49,866 bases of DNA, from contig PDZV01000028.1 of NCBI GenBank assembly GCA_002753135.1, forward strand, positions 1-49,866, written 5' to 3'. The notes beneath the pieces were generated by a model. The model was not told the DNA's origin, did not search any database, and saw only the letters and a program-made list of their open reading frames with translations. Below, piece after piece: positions 15,491 through 27,990 of this stretch. The stretch's first letter is position 1. Every line of letters begins with the position of its first letter. The translations under genes were made by a program, and so were the position numbers. Source of the stretch: Magnetococcales bacterium WMHbinv6. GTDB taxonomy: Bacteria > Pseudomonadota > Magnetococcia > Magnetococcales > Magnetaquicoccaceae.

Positions 15491-15851
15491 AGATAAGGCG
15501 GTTTCTTAAAATAACGGCACGCCTTATTGTTGCCGGAACCCTTCATCAACCGGTGACATCTCCTGGGCCAGATTGTTGAGCGGGCAGACTAACACAACCA
15601 ATAACGCACCCCGTTCCTGCACCGCGTATCCATGGCATGCAACTGCCTTGCCTCCCAGCCGAAAGCAGCCATTGCCTTTGTGGCGTGAGCGCATTTTAAT
15701 TGATATTTCTCAAATAATCTCTTGCAATTTCAGCAGATCAATACAGAATGTCAGCTTATGATCGGAGCAGGTAGCAGGCAGCTTGACCATGAGTGGTTTG
15801 ATCAGATTGCAAACCAACGGCAGAGTGGTATCAAGGTCACGGAAGAGAGCG
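15491..15851. other. Gene-poor interval before the chemoreceptor gene
   Basis: Apart from a hairpin, ATAAGGCG (15493-15500) with CGCCTTAT (15520-15527), I see no gene or clear promoter here. A 62-residue open frame (15573-15761) has no ribosome site or recognisable motif. The stretch 15690-15740 is AT-rich and may hold the promoter of the downstream gene. Confidence 0.45.
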
Positions 15852-18623
15852 ATGAAGAGTAACCTGTTTTTTTCCTCTGTATGGCAGAGATTGGCAACAT
15901 CCATCAGTTTACGTATCCTGGCGGTGGTCGGCATCATCGGTATGGCGAGTCTGTCCACGTTGGGTGGTTTATTGATCCGGGCAATGGAAGACAATCTGCT
16001 GCAACAAAGCGATGAAACGATCCGCACCTTGGCAGATGTGGCCAGTGAGGGGCTACAAACCATCATGTTGGCAGGCTATTCCGACATTGCCAACCAGTAT
16101 GCACAAAACCTGAAAAAAGTGCATGAATTACAGGAGTTTCGCATTCTCAATCGCTTTGGTGTGGAGGCGTTTCAAGCGAACACCACCAACCCGTTGCCGG
16201 TCAGTGATGAGATTGCACAAGCAATCAAACAGGCTGTGGCACAAAAAAATGTGCAATCTTTACTGATACGTGATGGTGCGACAACCAATCGGCTTCTGCT
16301 GGTTCCTTTACTCAACCGTGAACCGTGTCATGCCTGTCATGGCAGTGATCATGAGGTTCGTGGTCTTTTTTTATTATCCATCTCTTTGGCCGGTGTAGAA
16401 CAACAAATCGGGCAGGCCCGCCTGGCGGCGTTGCTGGTCGTCTGTGCCGCTGTCACGCTTTTTTTACTGCTGCTGGGCTACATTTTGTCCCGATCGGTGA
16501 AACAACCTCTCCAGGCGATCAGTATGGCTATTGATGAAACGGCCAAAGGTAACCTGACCGAGAGGATTCGCCATTCCGGTAAAGATGAAATTGCCCGCAT
16601 AGCCGGCAACATCAATCGGCTTAAAGAGCAAATGATCAGTAATATCCGGATGATCAACCTACAATCCGGCAGTATTACCGCCTTCATCAAAGAGGTGTTG
16701 CAGCTGCGCAAAGCCATTGGGGATGATGCGGTTGGCATTCGCAGCATGGCCGAAAATGTGGCGGCGGAAAACCAGCAGCTTAACGAAAAAATCAGCCAGA
16801 TGCGCCTGCTGCTGCAGCAGGCTGAGGAACAAATCGCCCATTTGACTGCGGCAACCGGCGAAGTGGCGACCAGCATTCAAGGCAGTGCCAGCAACGCCGA
16901 CCGCACCAGCACCAATGTGGATACCGTTTCTGCCGCTGCTGCACAAATGATGAATAATGTCAAAGAGGTCAATATTCGTCTGACCCAAGTGGGGCATGCG
17001 GTCGTGCAGGTCTCCGAATCGGTCCAGGTGATGACCACCTCTTTTGCCGATATTCAAGGCCGTTGTCAAAAAGCCAGCGAAGCCTCCCGCGAAGCGCATC
17101 ATTACGCACAAGAAACTTTTTCTGCCGTTTCACGACTCTCCCTGTCGGCAACAGAAATCGGCAACGTGGTTGAACTGATCAATAATATTGCTGAACAAAC
17201 CAATATTTTGGCCTTGAACGCCTCCATCGAAGCTGCCGGAGCAGGTTCTTTTGGGACAGGGTTTGCGGTGGTCGCCAATGAGGTCAAGGAGTTGGCGCGG
17301 CAAACGGCAGATGCGACACAGATCATTACGGACAAAATTAAAACGATTCAGCAGGATACATCTGGCGTAACGGAAGATGTCAAAGATATTTCCAATATTA
17401 TTTTGCGCATCAACACCGAAAACGGACATATTTTGCAGGCGGTGGATGAGCAGCATCATACGGTACAGGATATTTCCTCGGCGATGGGCAATGTTTCCTC
17501 GGCCACCACGACGGTCAACAGCCATATTGATCATCTCAACAACGCCGCACGCGATGTCGCGCATGCAGCGGCACAAGCCTCACAAAGCACAACGGAAATC
17601 GCCAACAGTTCGACCAGGATTGCCGATTCTGCACAAAGGATGGCAGAACAGTCTACCCGTTCGTTGGCCTTTATTCGCGAGGTATTGACCTCTTCGCAAC
17701 ATACGGAAAAATCCTCGGCGATTGTGCGCAGCTGCATTCAGGAGACTTTGTCCGTGGTGGGCAAGTTGCAAGGAACCGTCAACCATTTTCGTGCCTTGGG
17801 CGATGTGGCCAGCAATATCAGCGATGCACTCTCTGCCGCCCAATCGACATTGGATATCGGGACAGAACGGTTTGATGTGCGTGCGGTCAAGGAATCTTTA
17901 CTGCACCTGCTGGGTCGTCTGGAGCGGTCGATTTACGGGCATAATCCGGTCACCATGGCAGAGATCGAGCAACAGTGTCAAATCTGTCTCCTGGAACAGA
18001 ACCTGGTCAGCAGCTGCCATGCAGAGGAAGCGTACCAGAAACTGCAAAAGACCCACCAACAAATTCATCGCACCTGCCGGGAGATTGTCGCCCGCTTGGG
18101 AGAAATAAATCACGAGCAGGAGGCCATCGAAGCGGTACGCTTCTTTCAGGAGTTGGTCAATACTCTCTTTGAACAACTGGATTTGCTCTATTTGGGACAG
18201 ACAGCTGCTGAACAAAGCACCCTGCTGATCAGCTGGCATCCGGAACTGAGTGTTGCTGTGCCACAACTGGATAACGATCATCAGCGTTTGATCGACATGA
18301 TCAATGCGTTGTACAGCGCCCTCAAACATAATCAGGGACAGGCTGTGCTGACCACCATCATCGAGAGTCTGATCGATTACAGCAAAACCCATTTTGCCCG
18401 AGAAGAACAGCATATGACCCGTATTGGCTATCCGGAACTGGCGGCACATCGGCAAGAACATCAGGCGTTTATTGAACGGGTCATGCAGTTCATGCACAAA
18501 CAGCAGGAAGATCCGTTTGCGCTCTCCAGTGCCATGCTGCACTATCTGCGCAAATGGTTGTTGCAGCACATTCAAGGATCGGACAAAGCCTATTGCCGGT
18601 TTCAGGCGACAGGCAAGGGATAG
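15852..18623 (+). CDS. Methyl-accepting chemotaxis protein with heme c, CZB-like and hemerythrin domains
   Basis: The 923-residue protein has membrane helix 1 (~19-42), a periplasmic sensor with one heme c site (PCHACHGSDH, Cys159-Cys162-His163), helix 2 (~193-213), and HAMP (~213-265). Next is a long signalling coiled coil whose tip reads IAEQTNILALNASIEAAGAGSFGTGFAVVANEV (~445-478). After it a CZB-like zinc-binding module carries His685, Cys709, His735 and His739. A C-terminal hemerythrin domain (~791-917) shows DNDHQRL, THFAREEQHM, HRQEHQAF and LLQHIQGSDKAY, a complete di-iron ligand set. It should report redox state or oxygen to the chemotaxis kinase. ATG 15852 has GGAAGAG 5 bp upstream; ATG 15789 is an alternative. 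Its stop codon directly abuts the stop of the convergent next gene. Confidence 0.93.
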   Translation: MKSNLFFSSVWQRLATSISLRILAVVGIIGMASLSTLGGLLIRAMEDNLLQQSDETIRTLADVASEGLQTIMLAGYSDIANQYAQNLKKVHELQEFRILNRFGVEAFQANTTNPLPVSDEIAQAIKQAVAQKNVQSLLIRDGATTNRLLLVPLLNREPCHACHGSDHEVRGLFLLSISLAGVEQQIGQARLAALLVVCAAVTLFLLLLGYILSRSVKQPLQAISMAIDETAKGNLTERIRHSGKDEIARIAGNINRLKEQMISNIRMINLQSGSITAFIKEVLQLRKAIGDDAVGIRSMAENVAAENQQLNEKISQMRLLLQQAEEQIAHLTAATGEVATSIQGSASNADRTSTNVDTVSAAAAQMMNNVKEVNIRLTQVGHAVVQVSESVQVMTTSFADIQGRCQKASEASREAHHYAQETFSAVSRLSLSATEIGNVVELINNIAEQTNILALNASIEAAGAGSFGTGFAVVANEVKELARQTADATQIITDKIKTIQQDTSGVTEDVKDISNIILRINTENGHILQAVDEQHHTVQDISSAMGNVSSATTTVNSHIDHLNNAARDVAHAAAQASQSTTEIANSSTRIADSAQRMAEQSTRSLAFIREVLTSSQHTEKSSAIVRSCIQETLSVVGKLQGTVNHFRALGDVASNISDALSAAQSTLDIGTERFDVRAVKESLLHLLGRLERSIYGHNPVTMAEIEQQCQICLLEQNLVSSCHAEEAYQKLQKTHQQIHRTCREIVARLGEINHEQEAIEAVRFFQELVNTLFEQLDLLYLGQTAAEQSTLLISWHPELSVAVPQLDNDHQRLIDMINALYSALKHNQGQAVLTTIIESLIDYSKTHFAREEQHMTRIGYPELAAHRQEHQAFIERVMQFMHKQQEDPFALSSAMLHYLRKWLLQHIQGSDKAYCRFQATGKG

Positions 18624-21191
18624 TTATCCCTGTTGCCAAATACGCCACAAATGGCTTTCCAGATCCGCCGTATAGCCTACGGCATCGCACAAAGGCGAGC
18701 GCTGCATCTGGGCCCGCAGTCCGGCGCGCAAGCTGGCAAGGGTGGAGAGATTGGCTGCCAGTTGTTGGGCAATCTGTACATACTCTTCCTGGGTATTGGC
18801 AATCCATTGCGGATAACCCAGGGTGGTCAGCAAACTGCAGCCCATGCGGCTCATGAACCCTGCACCGGCCAGGGTAACCAGCGGCACACCCATCCAGAGG
18901 GTGTCACAACTGGTTGTGCCGCCATTGAAGGGGATGGGATCCAGGGCAATATCCACCTCACCATATTCGGCCAGATAGCGTTCTGCCGGGGAGGCCGGGC
19001 GCAGATGGATCCGTTCTTCACGAATGCCATGTTCGGCAAAGCGCTGCCGCACCTGTTGACAGGTTCCCGCGTCTCCGAGACTGGAGGCTTTCAGCAACAA
19101 GCGGGACTCGGCAACGGCATGCAGCAGTTTTGCCCACAGAGCGACACAACTCGGCGAAAGTTTGGGCAGATTGTTAAAGCTGCCAAAGGTGATCTGTCCG
19201 TGGCGCAGCGCCGGCAATGGGGCCACATCCGGTGCCGACTGACGCTGGTAACAGAGAAAACTTGCCCGCAGGCGAATGATCTGTTCGCTGTAGAGATGGC
19301 TTTCCTGAACAGGAATCACATAGCGATCGGCCAAAAGGTAATCGATTGTGTCCAGCCCGGTACTAAAAGGATAGCCCAGAAAAGTAGCTTGTACCGGGGC
19401 AGGGCGGCAGGCCAACAGATCCATGCGTCCCCCCGCCGTATAACCGGCCAGATCGATCAAAATATCAATCTCATCCTGCCGAATTTGCTCTGCCATGCTC
19501 TCCCGTTTGCACCCCTCCCAATCGCGCCAGCGATGGGCATAACCCTGCAGGCGTTGTGTGGTCTCATCAGCCGCATGGGGCAAGGCATAACAGGTGACAT
19601 AAAAACGATCGGCATCATGGTGTTGCAGGATGGGTTCCATGAACAAGCCGACGGGATGGCTGCGAAAATCGGGCGACAGATAACCGATGTGACAGCGCTG
19701 ACGCCGGGAAGAGCGCACCCTGCTTGCAGACAGTGGTGTCACCTGCTGCCGCACCTGCAAGGCCAGTTGTTGATGGAGCTGGCTTTGTTGCTGGCTATCC
19801 AGGCTGTCCCGATAGAGGGAAGAGAAGAGGGTATTGCCGATGGCCACTAAGCTGTCCGGCTTTTTTTGCCGCGCTCTGGCCAACAGCTGTTGGCCCTCTT
19901 CGATGCGGGCCTGCTGCACCAAAGCGAATGCCTGCATGCCCAGCAAATCCACATGGTCCGGATAACGGCGCAACAGCGGCTCCATCTGCTGCATGGCCTC
20001 ACTGATCAGCCCCAGATCGATCAACGTACAGGCCAGACTGGCCATCGTATCCGGATCATCCGGTTGCAGGCGGGCCGCCTGACGCAAATAGGCCAACCCC
20101 TCTTCATGGCGTTTTTTGATCCGACACAAGGTACCCAGATTGGCCAAGGCAACCACATGTTGTGGATCAATGGCCAGGCAACGACGCCATGCGGCCTCTG
20201 CAGCCACATTGTTGCCCAGCGCCCGCAAAACGACACCCATGGCATTGGCGGTGGTGGCCGAACCGGGTTGCAGGGTTTCCAGGCGCTGGTAGATGGCCAG
20301 GGCAGCCTCCGGCTCCTCCTGCTGAAAATAGCAATCACCTTGCAAGCGCAGCAGTTCGACATGATCGGGCCACAGGGTCAGCGCCTCTTGCAACAGTAGC
20401 TGGCTCTCTTCTGTCCGCTTTTGCGATTGACAAAGGCGAATCAGATTCAACCATGCCGTGTCCAGATCCCGCCGTTGTTGCAACGCCTGGCGATAACAGG
20501 GTTCCGCCGCCGCAGCATCCTGCTGGCGTTGATAGAGGTTGCCCAGATTGATCCAGGCTTCGGCAGGTTCGGCCAGCCAGTGGACGGCCTGTTGATAGTG
20601 CTGAATGGCCTCCTCAGTTTGACCGGCATCGGCCAGTGCATTGGCCAGGTTGTAGGCGCTTTCGCCGCGCTGTTGCGTGTTGGTTTCCGCTTGGGCCAAA
20701 GCCTGCCGATGGTGTTGAATGGCCAGCGCAAAACGCCCCATCTGCCGGTAGAGGTTGCCCAAATTGCGGTGGGCCAACGGCAGACGTGGCTGCAGCGCCA
20801 AAGCGGTTTGATAATGGCCGATGGCCTGTTCATGTTGTCCCAGATCACGCAACAGATTGGCCAGATTATAATGGGCCGGAAAGAGAGAGGGCTGACGTTC
20901 TATGGCGCTCTGAAAACTGGTGACCGCTGCGGACAACAGCCCCATTTTTTGCTGCAGATTGCCGTAATTGAACCACACTTCGCCAGGAACCTGGCCTGTT
21001 TGCAACCGTTTTTGATAAAGGGCCAGCGCCGTATCATAATTGTGCAGGCGGGCATGCAGAGAGGCCAGATTGGTCAAAGCAACGGCATGCTGCTCATCCT
21101 GCTGCAACAGTTGGTGATAAAGGGATAGCGCCTCCTCCAACCTTCCCTGCTGGTGGGCCAGCAGGGCTTGTTCGAGCAGTGGAACAGACAC
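18624..21191 (-). CDS. TPR protein with GT41 (O-GlcNAc transferase/SPINDLY-like) catalytic domain
   Basis: The 855-residue protein has about twelve TPR units in residues ~1-460 (AHYNLANLLRDLGQ, AHRNLGNLYRQMG and so on) and a GT41 domain in ~490-855. Family motifs are visible: IGYLSPDFRSHPVG with the active-site His, HLYSEQIIRLR, ITFGSFNNLPKLSP with the UDP-binding Lys, and DPIPFNGGTTSCDTLWMGVP. Such enzymes glycosylate Ser/Thr of proteins in the cytosol, using UDP-GlcNAc or another nucleotide sugar; the substrate here is unknown. GTG 21191 is the start, and its G is the last base of the mlaC stop codon (TAGTG), so it is translationally tied to the mla operon. The DUF-type OGT C-terminus looks intact. 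Confidence 0.9.
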   Translation of the reverse strand: MSVPLLEQALLAHQQGRLEEALSLYHQLLQQDEQHAVALTNLASLHARLHNYDTALALYQKRLQTGQVPGEVWFNYGNLQQKMGLLSAAVTSFQSAIERQPSLFPAHYNLANLLRDLGQHEQAIGHYQTALALQPRLPLAHRNLGNLYRQMGRFALAIQHHRQALAQAETNTQQRGESAYNLANALADAGQTEEAIQHYQQAVHWLAEPAEAWINLGNLYQRQQDAAAAEPCYRQALQQRRDLDTAWLNLIRLCQSQKRTEESQLLLQEALTLWPDHVELLRLQGDCYFQQEEPEAALAIYQRLETLQPGSATTANAMGVVLRALGNNVAAEAAWRRCLAIDPQHVVALANLGTLCRIKKRHEEGLAYLRQAARLQPDDPDTMASLACTLIDLGLISEAMQQMEPLLRRYPDHVDLLGMQAFALVQQARIEEGQQLLARARQKKPDSLVAIGNTLFSSLYRDSLDSQQQSQLHQQLALQVRQQVTPLSASRVRSSRRQRCHIGYLSPDFRSHPVGLFMEPILQHHDADRFYVTCYALPHAADETTQRLQGYAHRWRDWEGCKRESMAEQIRQDEIDILIDLAGYTAGGRMDLLACRPAPVQATFLGYPFSTGLDTIDYLLADRYVIPVQESHLYSEQIIRLRASFLCYQRQSAPDVAPLPALRHGQITFGSFNNLPKLSPSCVALWAKLLHAVAESRLLLKASSLGDAGTCQQVRQRFAEHGIREERIHLRPASPAERYLAEYGEVDIALDPIPFNGGTTSCDTLWMGVPLVTLAGAGFMSRMGCSLLTTLGYPQWIANTQEEYVQIAQQLAANLSTLASLRAGLRAQMQRSPLCDAVGYTADLESHLWRIWQQG

Positions 21192-21832
21192 TATTTTTCG
21201 CTTTTATTGACCGATTGTTCCAAGGCATGCAACATGGCATCGATACCTTCTGCATCGTCCCGTTGCAGCAGTTGTTTGAATTGGGCCCGATAGTTGGCAA
21301 CCACGCTGACCCCTTCGATGGTCACATCGTTGACTTTCCAGGTTTGTCCCTGTTTTGCCAACAGATAGGAAACTTTGAATTCTGTTCCCTTGCTGACCAC
21401 CACGCTGTCGACACGGCTCAAGGTGCTGGTTTGCACGACCTCTTTGGTGAAACGGACCTCTTCACTCTTGTAGCGCTCAATGCTGTTCATATAGGTATTT
21501 TCCAGCAGGCGTTCAAAGAGTTGGATAAAGCGGCTTTTTTGCGCCTCGGAGAATTTATGCCATTTCAAACCGACGGCACCCTGGGACATGGCATTGAAGT
21601 CGAACTCTTCAAAGACGATGGCCCGCAATTTTTCCCGGCGTTCCGGTTGTTTTTCCGGTGTGCTTAAGCTGACATCACGCAAGATGGTAAGAACTTTTTG
21701 CACCACCCGGTTCATATGTGTGATGGTTGGACTCTCTTCGGCCTGTGCGGCAGGAGGAGCGCTCAACAGGGCAAGCAGCAGCAACAGCCAACCGGCTTGA
21801 CGCAATGAGATGGAAAACGGGGAGTTAAGCAT
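21191..21832 (-). CDS. mlaC: Periplasmic phospholipid-binding protein MlaC
   Basis: MlaC carries phospholipid across the periplasm between the outer-membrane MlaA complex and the inner-membrane MlaFED transporter. The 213-residue product has a signal peptide (~1-31, ending AAQA|EES) and the family's features: LRAIVFEEFDFNAMSQGAVG, FSEAQKSRFIQLFERLLENTY and QTWKVNDVTIEGVSVVANYRAQF near the end. The length is normal. It lies 20 bp after mlaD, and its stop overlaps the GTG of the GT41 gene by one base. Confidence 0.93.
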   Translation of the reverse strand: MLNSPFSISLRQAGWLLLLLALLSAPPAAQAEESPTITHMNRVVQKVLTILRDVSLSTPEKQPERREKLRAIVFEEFDFNAMSQGAVGLKWHKFSEAQKSRFIQLFERLLENTYMNSIERYKSEEVRFTKEVVQTSTLSRVDSVVVSKGTEFKVSYLLAKQGQTWKVNDVTIEGVSVVANYRAQFKQLLQRDDAEGIDAMLHALEQSVNKSEK

Positions 21833-21852: not shown

Positions 21853-22302
21853 TTATTTGACAGAGCCATGGATGAACTGGCTGATCAACTCTTCAAAGTT
21901 GATGGCCGGTTCGGTACGGACGATGGTTTCATCGGCTTTCAGGAGATTTTTGGAACCACCCGGACTGATCACCACATAACGATCACCGATCAACCCTTTG
22001 GTACGCACCGAGGCGATGGCATCATCCTGAATCGGAATATGGGGCTTGATTTTCATCCGCACCCGTGCCTCGTAATCGGTGGTATTGAGGGTAATGGCAT
22101 CGACCCGGCCCACTTCCACCCCGGCAATTTCCACGGAGGCACCGCTTTTCAATCCGGCGATGGAGGAAAAATTGGCATAGATCGGCAGATGATCACCCCC
22201 CACCAGTTCCATACGGGCCAGTCTGACCGAGAGCCAGGCCATCGCCAGCATTCCGGCCAGCACGAACAGGCCGACCATCATTTCCAATTTAACGCTTTTC
22301 AT
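21853..22302 (-). CDS. mlaD: MCE-domain protein MlaD
   Basis: MlaD forms the hexameric lipid-binding ring on the inner-membrane transporter. The 149-residue protein has one N-terminal membrane helix (~8-27, MMVGLFVLAGMLAMAWLSV) and a single MCE domain (~35-115) with IAGLKSGASVEIAGVEVGRV and the GLIGDRYVVISPGG motif. Length and architecture fit MlaD, not the multi-MCE proteins PqiB or YebT. It lies 24 bp after mlaF, with a CAAGGAGAGGAG ribosome site before its ATG. Confidence 0.94.
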   Translation of the reverse strand: MKSVKLEMMVGLFVLAGMLAMAWLSVRLARMELVGGDHLPIYANFSSIAGLKSGASVEIAGVEVGRVDAITLNTTDYEARVRMKIKPHIPIQDDAIASVRTKGLIGDRYVVISPGGSKNLLKADETIVRTEPAINFEELISQFIHGSVK

Positions 22303-22326: not shown

Positions 22327-23349
22327 TCAGATCACCTGAATGGGCCCATCCAGGGCACCGCTGATGAACTGTTTGATGGTGGGATCCGTCGAATGGCGAA
22401 TATCCAGCGAAGGCCCTGACGCCAACACCCGTCCGCGGTGCAAGACCACCACATGATGGCACCAGTCAAAGATGGCAGGCACGGCATGACTGATGCAGAC
22501 GATGGTATAGCGGGTGCGCATATAGGTATCGCAAATCAGATAATGGATGGCATTTTCGATAATCGGATCCAGACCGGCAGTGGGTTCATCGAGCAGGATG
22601 ATTTCCGGTTGTGTGACCAGGGCACGGGCCAGAGCCGCCCGTTTTTTCATGCCGCCGCTCAATTCGTCGGGAAATTTATGTCCCATGCCGGCCAGATTGA
22701 CCTCCTGCAGGCAGGTTTCCACCCGTTGCAAAATTTCCTGTTCGGACAGACGGGTTTTTTCCCGCAGCGGAAAGGCCACGTTATCGGTGACATTAAGGGA
22801 ATCAAACAGGGCACCTTCCTGAAAAAGCATACTGAAACGGCGGCGCACCTCGTTGAGTTGCCGTCCGGAAAGTTTGCTGACCGGCTGATCCCCTACCCAG
22901 ACTTCTCCCTGGTCTGGTTTCATCAGACCGACCATATGTTTCAGGGTGACACTTTTGCCGCCACCGCTGATACCGATGATGGCGGTAATTTTATTGGCGG
23001 GAATTTCCAGGTTGAGGTTATCCAACACCTTGCGCCCGTCCAGCGTTTTTTCCACATGGTTGAAGCGGATGATGGTTGACGCTTGCCGATCCAGTTGATA
23101 GGCGATGCGTTCGCGGGTCAGTTGATGAAACAGACATTCCAACAGGGCCGGATGGGAGATATAACCCATTTCGATCAATTTTTTGCCGATCAACGCCTCT
23201 TTGTTGACGCTGGTACCGCTCTGCTGGGCCAGGGCCTCCTGCAACTGTTGCGGCGTGATACATTGATTGCGCACCAACCGTTCACCGATGGGCAGTGGCA
23301 TGGCCTCTTCCTGAATGGTGCTTGCTTGCAAAGCAGAGGGCTGGGACAT
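22327..23349 (-). CDS. mlaF: ABC transporter ATPase MlaF with MshEN-like N-terminal extension
   Basis: The 340-residue protein has an ABC domain at ~93-335: Walker A GISGGGKS (126-133), signature LSGGMKKRAALARAL, Walker B IILLDEPTAGLDP and switch His in CISHAVP. This is the MlaF ATPase that powers MlaE lipid transport. Residues ~17-80 are extra: IGERLVRNQCITPQQLQEALAQQ and IGKKLIEMGYISHPALLECLFHQ form a two-part repeat like the MshEN/GspE N-terminal domain, which in other proteins binds cyclic di-GMP. The leading Arg of that motif is missing in both halves, so binding is uncertain. Typical MlaF is about 270 residues. ATG 23349 lies 13 bp after the mlaE stop; an upstream start at 23394 would overlap mlaE. 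Confidence 0.92.
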   Translation of the reverse strand: MSQPSALQASTIQEEAMPLPIGERLVRNQCITPQQLQEALAQQSGTSVNKEALIGKKLIEMGYISHPALLECLFHQLTRERIAYQLDRQASTIIRFNHVEKTLDGRKVLDNLNLEIPANKITAIIGISGGGKSVTLKHMVGLMKPDQGEVWVGDQPVSKLSGRQLNEVRRRFSMLFQEGALFDSLNVTDNVAFPLREKTRLSEQEILQRVETCLQEVNLAGMGHKFPDELSGGMKKRAALARALVTQPEIILLDEPTAGLDPIIENAIHYLICDTYMRTRYTIVCISHAVPAIFDWCHHVVVLHRGRVLASGPSLDIRHSTDPTIKQFISGALDGPIQVI

Positions 23350-23362
23350 GGCAAAGCGCTCG

Positions 23363-24133
23363 TTACAACAGGACAGAGGTGATAAAATAATCACAGACCA
23401 AAATCAGCACCGAACTGAGTACCACAGCAGAGGTGGTGGCCTGGCTGACCCCTTCGGCACCCCGTTTGGCATGATAGCCTTTAAAGGTACAGATCCAGGT
23501 CACAATCAAGCCAAAGCTGACGGCTTTGATCAAGCCGGTGGTAATATCGCGCATCACCACAGCCGATTCGATCCCGGAAAAATAGACGCCGCTGCTCATT
23601 TCCAGCAGCTGCACGGCAATCAGATAGCCCCCCAGGATGCCAATCACGTCAAAGATGACGGTCAGAATCGGCAGCGAGATCAAACCGGCCAGAATGCGGG
23701 GCACGACCAGATATTGCAGGGAGGAGATACCCATCACCTCCAGGGCGTCCACCTGTTCGCGAATGCGCATGATGCCCAATTCGGCAGCCAGGGCCGAACC
23801 GGCACGTCCGGTCACCATCAAACCGGAAAGAACCGGTCCCAATTCCCGGATAATGGAAAGGGCGACCGCCGGACCAAGCATACCTTCGGCCCCAAAGCGG
23901 GTCAGGGTATAATAGCCTTGCAGCGCCAGCACCATGCCGGCAAAAATCGCCGTCAGGACAATGACAAACAGGGAACGAATACCAATAAAATGAATTTGTT
24001 TCAACAAGTTATGGATCCGGTACGGCGGGCGTACCGCCAGGGCGATTACCGTAAAGAGAAACAGGAACATACGCCCTGTTTCCAAAACGAATTCAATCGT
24101 ATAACGCCCGATATGCTGGATCAGGGGAATCAT
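23363..24133 (-). CDS. mlaE: Lipid-asymmetry ABC transporter permease MlaE
   Basis: MlaE is the inner-membrane permease of the Mla phospholipid transporter. The 256-residue product has the usual amphipathic N-terminal helix, about five membrane segments and the family block ELGPVLSGLMVTGRAGSALAAELGIMRIREQVDALEVMG (~95-133). Also present are LVVPRILAGLISLPIL and GFGLIVTWICTFKG-like residues (SFGLIVTWICTFKGYHA). It is the first gene of mlaE-mlaF-mlaD-mlaC-GT41 on the minus strand and is divergent from mlaA. No mlaB (STAS) gene is present in the cluster. Confidence 0.94.
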   Translation of the reverse strand: MIPLIQHIGRYTIEFVLETGRMFLFLFTVIALAVRPPYRIHNLLKQIHFIGIRSLFVIVLTAIFAGMVLALQGYYTLTRFGAEGMLGPAVALSIIRELGPVLSGLMVTGRAGSALAAELGIMRIREQVDALEVMGISSLQYLVVPRILAGLISLPILTVIFDVIGILGGYLIAVQLLEMSSGVYFSGIESAVVMRDITTGLIKAVSFGLIVTWICTFKGYHAKRGAEGVSQATTSAVVLSSVLILVCDYFITSVLL

Positions 24134-24224: not shown

Positions 24225-24289
24225 GGATGGAGTTGGCAAGGAAATTAAAGCAAGCCAAGCCTCTTTTTTCTCTCGAGTACAGCGAGCCA

Positions 24290-25039
24290 ATGATGAAAAA
24301 ATTTTTCTTTGTTATCACATTGTTCTTCAGTTTCCTGTTGACGGTCGGCAGCGTATCGATTGCCGGGGCAGTCGCGACATCTGCCCAAAGCAGCCAAAGC
24401 AGTGAAACCGATGGCCATCTGGCCTTCAGCACGGAGGAGGTTTCCGACCCGCTGGAACCGGTCAATCGTCTCTTTTTTGAGTTCAATGATCTCTTTTATA
24501 TGGGGGTGATGCGCCCGGTTGCCACCGTCTATGGGGAGTTGGTACCGGAACCGGTGCGGGTTGGCGTGCGCAACATGTTTCACAATCTGGCCATGCCGTC
24601 CCGTTTTGTCAGCACGATGCTGGAGGGCAACATTGAGCAATCCGGGGTGGAGTTGAGCCGCTTTGGCATCAATTCCCTCTTTGGCCTGTTGGGATTTTTC
24701 GATGTGGCGGCCAATGCCGGTCTGAAAAGCAACAATCAGGATCTGGGACAAGCCTTTGGTCGTTGGGGTGTGGATGATTCCATCTATCTGGTGTTGCCGT
24801 TGGTCGGTCCCTCCACGATGCGTGACGGTGTGGGTTGGGTAGGTGATACTCTGTTGAATCCACTGACCTATGTACCGGGTGATCTGGGCTATCGTGCGGC
24901 ATTGGTAGGCCATCGTACGGTCAATGATGCCTCCTTGCATCTGGGCGAATATGAAGACCTGAAGAGAGCGGCAGTCGATCCCTATATTTCCTTGCGAGAT
25001 GCCTATTTGCAACGGCGGCGTGCCTTGATCAACGAATAA
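24290..25039 (+). CDS. mlaA: MlaA (VacJ) family outer-membrane phospholipid protein without lipobox
   Basis: MlaA removes misplaced phospholipids from the outer leaflet of the outer membrane and hands them to MlaC. The 249-residue product has a hydrophobic export signal (~5-28) and then the VacJ domain: DPLEPVNRLFFEFND, VRVGVRNMFHNLAMPSRFVSTML, FGINSLFGLLGFFDVA, DLGQAFGRWGVDD and YLVLPLVGPSTMRDG. The usual lipoprotein cysteine is absent; the signal region holds no Cys at all, so the protein may be soluble or anchored by its signal. ATG 24290 and 24293 are both possible. It is divergent from the mla transport operon. Confidence 0.93.
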   Translation: MMKKFFFVITLFFSFLLTVGSVSIAGAVATSAQSSQSSETDGHLAFSTEEVSDPLEPVNRLFFEFNDLFYMGVMRPVATVYGELVPEPVRVGVRNMFHNLAMPSRFVSTMLEGNIEQSGVELSRFGINSLFGLLGFFDVAANAGLKSNNQDLGQAFGRWGVDDSIYLVLPLVGPSTMRDGVGWVGDTLLNPLTYVPGDLGYRAALVGHRTVNDASLHLGEYEDLKRAAVDPYISLRDAYLQRRRALINE

Positions 25040-27330: not shown

Positions 27331-27990
27331 ATGAATCACACGCATCTATTGCATCTGGATCGCATTATCTGGCAGGGGGCAGAGCATGCAGCCAGGCAAC
27401 CTCCCCTCCTGGACGGGATCGATTGGTCGATCGGTGCAGGGGAACGTTGGGCAATTGTTGGTGGTGAGGGCAGCGGCAAAAGCACCTTGTTACGTTTGAT
27501 GGTCGGCTTGCTGCGCCCGGAGCAGGGCGAGGTACGCTGGCAGGGTCAACCGGTCAGTGAAGGCGCGACCGTGGCAGCGATCGGCGTCTTGTTCAGCGAT
27601 GCGGCGCAGCGCTTTTTAACACCCAACGTATGGGAAGAGATTGCCTTGACGCCCGCACACCAGGGCATTCTGGGCGAAGAGCTGCAACAGCGTGTGGCAA
27701 TGGCCATGCAGCAGGCTGGTCTGGAAGCGGCGATGGCCAAGCGGGAGTTGGCCACCTTATCGACCGCTCAAGCCTACCGGGTGGCCGTGGCTGCGCTGTT
27801 GGCGATGCAACCAACGCTGTTGCTGCTCGATGAACCAGGCTCTGTCCTGGATGAGGCAGGAGAAGCGGCCCTGGCCGCCTGTTTGCGTCCCTTCAGCAGC
27901 ATCACCCTGACCAGTCGCCTGAGCCGGGCCCGACTCTTTGCCGATCGGCTGGCCTGGCTGGAGAGTGGCCAACTACGGGTAGAGACATGA
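27331..27990 (+). CDS. ABC ATPase, ECF/CbiO-like, with degenerate signature and no switch histidine
   Basis: The 219-residue protein has Walker A GGEGSGKST (~45-53), a Q-loop region written VLFSDAAQRFLTPNVWEEIAL (the wording of ECF/CbiO ATPases, where Q-loop-D..LF..TV.ED.AF is usual) and Walker B LLLLDEP. The ABC signature LSGGQ reads LSTAQ, and the switch His region reads TSRLSRARLFADRL, so Ser replaces His. A pump needing normal hydrolysis should keep that His. It may work as one half of a heterodimer or be only weakly active. No T- or S-component gene is next to it. Confidence 0.78.
   Translation: MNHTHLLHLDRIIWQGAEHAARQPPLLDGIDWSIGAGERWAIVGGEGSGKSTLLRLMVGLLRPEQGEVRWQGQPVSEGATVAAIGVLFSDAAQRFLTPNVWEEIALTPAHQGILGEELQQRVAMAMQQAGLEAAMAKRELATLSTAQAYRVAVAALLAMQPTLLLLDEPGSVLDEAGEAALAACLRPFSSITLTSRLSRARLFADRLAWLESGQLRVET

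Follow-up and report, generated by a model that had tools for sequence, protein, structure and literature searches.

A minimal MshEN-type domain fused to the MlaF-like ATPase of Magnetococcales, a probable c-di-GMP receptor in lipid transport

The mla operon of Magnetococcales bacterium WMHbinv6, which belongs to a group of bacteria that form magnetic particles, found in the window analyzed here (49,866 nucleotides of contig PDZV01000028.1), encodes an MlaF-like ABC ATPase that begins with a minimal MshEN domain (MshEN_N type, ~57 residues). We read this protein, with a probability of roughly two in three, as a lineage-specific ATPase in which the added domain would be a c-di-GMP receptor that tunes lipid transport. 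The MshEN-type identity of the domain, its predicted fold, its fusion with the ATPase, its conservation and the operon are established by computation.

The mlaF-like gene is located on the minus strand (22327-23349, or 22330-23349 without the last codon), since frame 1 of the plus strand contains stop codons over 22327-23349. Its open reading frame covers 22327-23394 (355 aa). The likeliest start is the ATG at 23349, which gives a protein of 340 aa, and the alternative is an upstream GTG at 23394 that overlaps the end of mlaE. The annotation of the locus is provided in Table 1. In the locus comparison, the order mlaE-F-D-C and the divergent mlaA were conserved. Outside the operon, a TPR protein is encoded at 18624-21191 (minus strand), where it overlaps the stop codon of mlaC; by eye, its C-terminal region resembles glycosyltransferases of the SPINDLY/OGT type, and the same protein also lies 3' of mlaC in two congeneric genomes (71 and 65%; L031 and L050). 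A chemoreceptor-like protein (15783-18623, plus strand) has a C-terminus resembling bacteriohemerythrin, also by eye, and a short ABC ATPase (219 aa) stands alone at 27331-27990 (plus strand).

Table 1. Coordinates, within the window, of the mla locus and of the parts of the MlaF-like protein
Feature	Position	Strand	Description and evidence
mlaF-like gene	22327..23349	-	340 aa, MshEN domain and ABC ATPase; ORF, start region, ABC_tran 2e-32, fold 6xbd Z 28.1
MshEN motif I, residues 20-43 (P at position 1, G22, L36, L40, Q43)	23221..23292	-	NF053729; residue counts in 35 relatives; helices 21-27 and 33-43
MshEN motif II, residues 53-76 (L at position 1, G55, L69, L73, Q76)	23122..23193	-	NF053729; residue counts; helices 54-60 and 66-86
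Helix alpha4, residues 66-86, from motif II towards the ATPase	23092..23154	-	Invariant E80, nearly invariant Y84
MlaF-type nucleotide-binding domain, residues 92-340	22330..23076	-	Ends 3 residues past the G-P-I motif
mlaE permease, directly upstream of mlaF	23363..24133	-	PF02405 1.9e-83; TIGR00056 258.6 bits, cut-off 212.2
mlaD (MCE protein)	21853..22302	-	TIGR04430 153 bits, cut-off 135; PF02470
mlaC (periplasmic lipid carrier)	21191..21832	-	PF05494 1.4e-43
mlaA / vacJ outer-membrane lipoprotein, divergent	24227..25039	+	PF04333 1.1e-65

The N-terminal domain consists of two tandem motifs of 24 residues, at residues 20-43 (PIGERLVRNQCITPQQLQEALAQQ) and 53-76 (LIGKKLIEMGYISHPALLECLFHQ), joined by a linker of 9 residues. 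Residues 20-76 matched NF053729 ('c-di-GMP_motif, MshE-related'; NCBIfam), a curated 53-residue model of the MshE-type c-di-GMP motif, with 46 bits (E 3.4e-12; cut-off 38 bits). When the N-terminal domains of relatives were scanned alone, the model matched all 29 at E<=0.01; these were 29 of the 35 aligned, and the most degenerate one (L015) was among the six left out. The Pfam model MshEN (PF05157, 90 positions) matched neither the MlaF-like protein nor its N-terminal domain, nor any of the same 29 domains, and its matches in the WMHbinv6 genome lay only at other places. As the domain lacks a C-terminal subdomain, we assign it no further than to the 53-residue c-di-GMP motif type. A sequence search of the PDB with the domain retrieved PilB (6olj, E 0.001; also 5tsg and 5zfr), MshE (5htl, 0.087) and PilF (8pe0, 0.46), with unrelated CAND1 chains interspersed at E 0.02.

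AlphaFold2 predicted four helices in this region (residues 21-27, 33-43, 54-60, and 66-86). Given that the fold matches of the full-length model were all taken up by the ABC domain, the N-terminal domain was modelled separately, with a pLDDT of 83, and the best nine of 15 PDB matches found by Foldseek were all of the MshEN type. The top match was 5htl, MshE with c-di-GMP (probability 1.00, TMq 0.64, rmsd 2.0 A, 31% identity), followed by c-di-GMP-bound mutants of PilF GSPII-B and, at ranks six to nine, by structures of X. citri PilB; for this small domain the E-values were weak (0.036 at best, to 3.8). The alignment with 5htl by VIA-align was modest (Z 8.7, rmsd 6.2, 68 residues aligned). A preliminary description of this DNA had proposed an MshEN-like module fused to the N-terminus of MlaF, and the NF053729 score above its cut-off and the MshEN-type fold matches bear the proposal out. 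The profile search of the N-terminal region was positive with NF053729, though not with PF05157, and the predicted structure is not unlike the MshEN fold.

With regard to the ligand site, each guanine in MshE is described as stacked on three leucines and covered by the arginine at motif position 1, the motif glycine and the next residue holding the guanine through the backbone and the last glutamine contacting a phosphate (PMC5013675, PMC11731258). The putative ligand positions of the MlaF-like protein are I21, G22, L36, L40, and Q43 in motif I and I54, G55, L69, L73, and Q76 in motif II, with Ile at two of the six Leu-type positions. Among 35 relatives, motif I retained G22 in 35, L40 in 33, Q43 in 27, and L36 in 26 (V, I or M in the other nine), and motif II retained G55 in 34, L69 in 34, L73 in 35, and Q76 in 23, with I or V at its position 2 in most members. 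Position 1 was P in 17, S in nine, R in four, L in two, and E, Q, and T in one each for motif I; for motif II it was L in 33 and R and F in one each. In the MlaF-like protein, motif I also departs from the consensus at Q29 and C30, with four misses by the strict and two by the relaxed pattern, and motif II has three and one, respectively. The Leu at position 1 of motif II fits the extended consensus (Arg, or Lys/Leu) and the Pro of motif I fits only the relaxed search motif of 2016, [RKPN]. Conservation was higher at the contact positions than elsewhere in the motifs (mean majority 0.81 vs. 0.44, p 7e-5), and its excess over the structural core was not significant (0.81 vs. 0.74, p 0.28).

The preliminary description was right that neither motif has the position-1 Arg (P20 and L53 instead). 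Its suggestion that this absence could mark a degenerate form is not supported, given that PilF GSPII-B of T. thermophilus, in which Lys and Leu occupy position 1, binds c-di-GMP with a KD of 6 nM and loses affinity 25-fold and 4-fold when Arg is restored (150 and 23 nM, respectively), according to PMC11731258. From the same source, PilF GSPII-C, in which position 1 of motif II is a Pro, has about MshEN-like affinity (500 nM), but contains three motifs. In view of the tight binding by GSPII-B and of the Leu present in motif II of 33 of the 35 relatives, a missing Arg is by itself no proof of decay. For the MlaF N-terminal domain, c-di-GMP binding is likely.

The same residues could be read in another way, which we regard as rather improbable. 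The MshEN fold would have been kept and the nucleotide no longer bound, leaving a protein-docking module like the PilZ-binding N-terminal domain of X. citri PilB, described in PMC8389850 as being without the c-di-GMP motif. Such a module would agree with the replacement of the motif I Arg by Pro or Ser in most members, with a conservation of the contact positions that does not significantly exceed that of the core, and with the X. citri PilB structures among the Foldseek matches. However, glycines, Leu triads and most of the Gln residues are kept here, unlike what is reported for X. citri PilB (PMC8389850), the structures heading the Foldseek ranking are c-di-GMP-bound, and tight binding is possible with a Leu at position 1 (PMC11731258).

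The rest of the protein (residues 92-340) is an ABC ATPase (ABC_tran 2e-32). Its best curated family was MlaF (NF008809), with 212 bits, below the equivalog cut-off of 441; judged by its sequence, it is not an MlaF equivalog of the E. coli type, though NF008809 is its top-scoring family. In fold, E. coli MlaF came closest (6xbd, with a Z of 28.1 and an rmsd of 1.8 A for 251 residues), and the identity as MlaF is supported by the fact that an MlaF-fold ABC ATPase is encoded together with mlaE, mlaD, and mlaC. E. coli MlaF (6XBD, 6XGY) shares with residues 90-340 the ABC fold and the mlaE, mlaD, and mlaC partners. It differs in the gene order (F-E-D-C-B, vs. E-F-D-C in the Magnetococcales locus) and, as described in PMC7367683, in having no MshEN domain, a C-terminal handshake tail of ~25 residues and a dependence on MlaB. 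In E. coli, the tail binds where MlaF meets MlaB, and assembly requires both the tail and MlaB (PMC7367683).

In all 22 loci of the order examined, only three residues follow the G-P-I motif and the E. coli-type MlaB-docking tail is absent; in the four outgroup loci, 21-24 residues follow it. STAS_2 matched at 10 places in the WMHbinv6 genome, none of them on the contig carrying mlaF. Among the matches listed for 15 other genomes of the order, none was beside mlaF and a single genome (G026) had any on the mlaF contig, at least 14.6 kb away. The claim that no mlaB gene is present stands in these terms, with no STAS_2 match on the contig and no mlaB beside the operon. One outgroup genome (G048) has a STAS gene directly 3' of mlaC; the other three have no STAS gene adjoining mlaC, yet keep the tail. 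A STAS gene was also observed in G019 (C126:520-2459, locus L157), with a second MlaE and an MshEN-free ATPase as neighbors, possibly an MlaB-bearing paralogous system alongside the MshEN-MlaF one. In addition, the WMHbinv6 genome contains a second, distant MlaE homologue (G000:C33:38740-39360).

The suggestion that the domain may replace MlaB was correct as to its premise, mlaB being missing, and the docking tail is missing as well, but the suggestion is weakened by relatives of the protein. Three genomes of the order (G020, G044, and G047; loci L035, L154, and L155) keep the mlaEFDC operon with neither MshEN motifs nor a neighboring mlaB, the genome-wide STAS search covering one of the three. 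Tail-less MlaF-like proteins without MshEN were common in the tail comparison (e.g., L066, L080, L098), and alphaproteobacterial and cyanobacterial MlaF-like proteins (from a set of at least 80 loci) end shortly past the G-P motif, also without MshEN. For these reasons, a takeover of the MlaB role by the MshEN domain is possible and weakly supported, and it was demoted from the main reading to a rival. In its structural version, the domain would stabilize MlaF or its dimer after the loss of MlaB and the tail, with or without a ligand. The requirement for MlaB and tail in E. coli (PMC7367683), the shortened C-termini of the order and the lack of adjacent STAS genes speak for this version, and the three relatives and the tail-less lineages just mentioned make it quite doubtful.

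The distribution of the fusion was studied in 48 genomes of Magnetococcales, WMHbinv6 included, with a threshold of 1e-60 for MlaF matches. MlaF was matched in 39, and the MshEN-mlaF fusion was intact on one piece in 35, which represent 12 of the 14 families of the order. In G017, mlaF is broken between two contigs and the MshEN domain lies on a single piece. The mlaF genes without MshEN motifs, in which the profile match begins at position 65-66, are those of G020, G044, and G047 (3/39); G020 is the only full-match genome of family f4. As a separate observation, family f11 (G027, G034, and G038; ~99% complete) gave no MlaE or MlaF match and seems to have lost the whole Mla inner-membrane complex. 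Two different MshEN-mlaF copies were present in one 74% complete assembly (G046:C118 and G046:C400); the N-terminus of the C400 copy is almost identical to that of G036, and contamination is possible. MCR (magnetochrome) domains were found in 11 of 11 genomes of the order tested and in none of 14 controls, a pattern that, taken with the kinship of the genomes, would point to the Magnetococcia.

Among the matches listed for 350 other genomes of the phylum sample, the fusion was not seen: most matches begin at position 70-92, and the few earlier ones (48, 49) cross stop codons. A loosened MshEN motif, searched for with one regular expression, preceded the ATPase in 0/80 of at least 80 loci from other groups. 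With the N-terminal domain profile, no match listed for three further phyla (247, 245, and 235 genomes) covered the ATPase junction, and no listed match in 25 genomes of those loci and the three phyla reached the end of the model (position 97); outside the order, the furthest listed match ran to position 94, in a frame of 752 aa. The MshEN-like regions that this profile found in other phyla were mostly in frames of ~570-620 aa, the size of a PilB-type ATPase. As an architecture conserved within the lineage, the MshEN-MlaF fusion is confirmed. Of 125 pairs, the 14 closest gave a dN/dS of 0.11-0.66 for the MshEN part and 0.06-0.29 for the ATPase; for the leader before the MshEN part it was >1 in five and undefined in three. 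By these sequence ratios, the MshEN domain is under purifying selection. It must be noted that the two possible starts, the upstream one overlapping the end of mlaE, might suggest a start-codon artefact, a read-through of mlaE or a chance helical resemblance as the source of the N-terminal extension, but this is ruled out, for practical purposes, by the presence of the domain in frame in 35 genomes of 12 families, with motif-specific conservation, dN/dS <1 in the closest pairs and profile and fold matches that agree.

The systems closest to the proposed c-di-GMP receptor domain are V. cholerae MshE (5HTL) and PilF GSPII-B (9GL5, 8PFA, 9GLG), which have the same tandem 24-residue motifs in a four-helix N-subdomain, with the glycines, Leu triads and Gln, and are its closest fold matches. 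The MlaF domain differs from them in comprising the N-subdomain only, without MshEN_C, in the Pro and Leu at position 1, in its linker (9 residues vs. 5 in V. cholerae MshE; PMC5013675) and in its partner, an ABC ATPase rather than a secretion ATPase. In E. coli NfrB, too, a motif of the MshE type is attached to an unrelated enzyme as a regulatory element, and the NfrB model of NCBIfam matched the MlaF domain weakly (E 2e-4); NfrB is a c-di-GMP-activated glycosyltransferase and thus differs in output enzyme and process. In MetN, ModC, and MalK, as proposed here for MlaF, an added domain controls an ABC ATPase via a small molecule or a protein, but those regulatory domains are C-terminal and respond to other signals, according to PMC7367683, and that of the MlaF-like protein is N-terminal and of the MshEN type. 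In the open-access literature searched, no report of an MshEN-MlaF fusion was found.

As for the mechanism, we infer ligand binding, regulation, whichever its direction, and the coupling through alpha4, in contrast to the fold and the fusion, which were computed. c-di-GMP would bind between both motifs, as in MshE and PilF. Whether the four-helix domain is occupied or empty would be relayed via alpha4 (residues 66-86) to the strand with which the nucleotide-binding domain begins. The ATP turnover or the dimerization of MlaF would then change, by activation or inhibition, and phospholipid transport by MlaE-D-C would change with it. Since the WMHbinv6 genome contains 35 GGDEF stretches, c-di-GMP should be present. 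All 35 full forms aligned have Glu80, and the short forms of G020, G044, and G047 retain the last helix (e.g., ELRARLADTFSEECREYR in G044) and the equivalent of Glu80. The helix may pack on the ATPase and couple the sensor to it, and the sensor itself would be modulatory and dispensable for assembly. The three short forms, with alpha4 and mlaEFDC kept, are natural domain-loss variants. On balance, we lean slightly towards a direct gating of inter-membrane phospholipid transport by c-di-GMP, a second messenger of the sessile and motile states, that is, allostery on the Mla ABC ATPase coupled through alpha4, as a post-translational control without a neighboring MlaB.

To our knowledge, the control of Mla transport is not settled for E. 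coli either, nor is the part that MlaB plays there. In this regard, the Magnetococcales protein offers a testable system, with a ligand known from its relatives, natural relatives without the domain and conserved leucines in each half-site. If our reading is true, ABC lipid transporters would join the outputs of MshEN domains, and c-di-GMP signalling would be directly linked to the lipid balance of the envelope.
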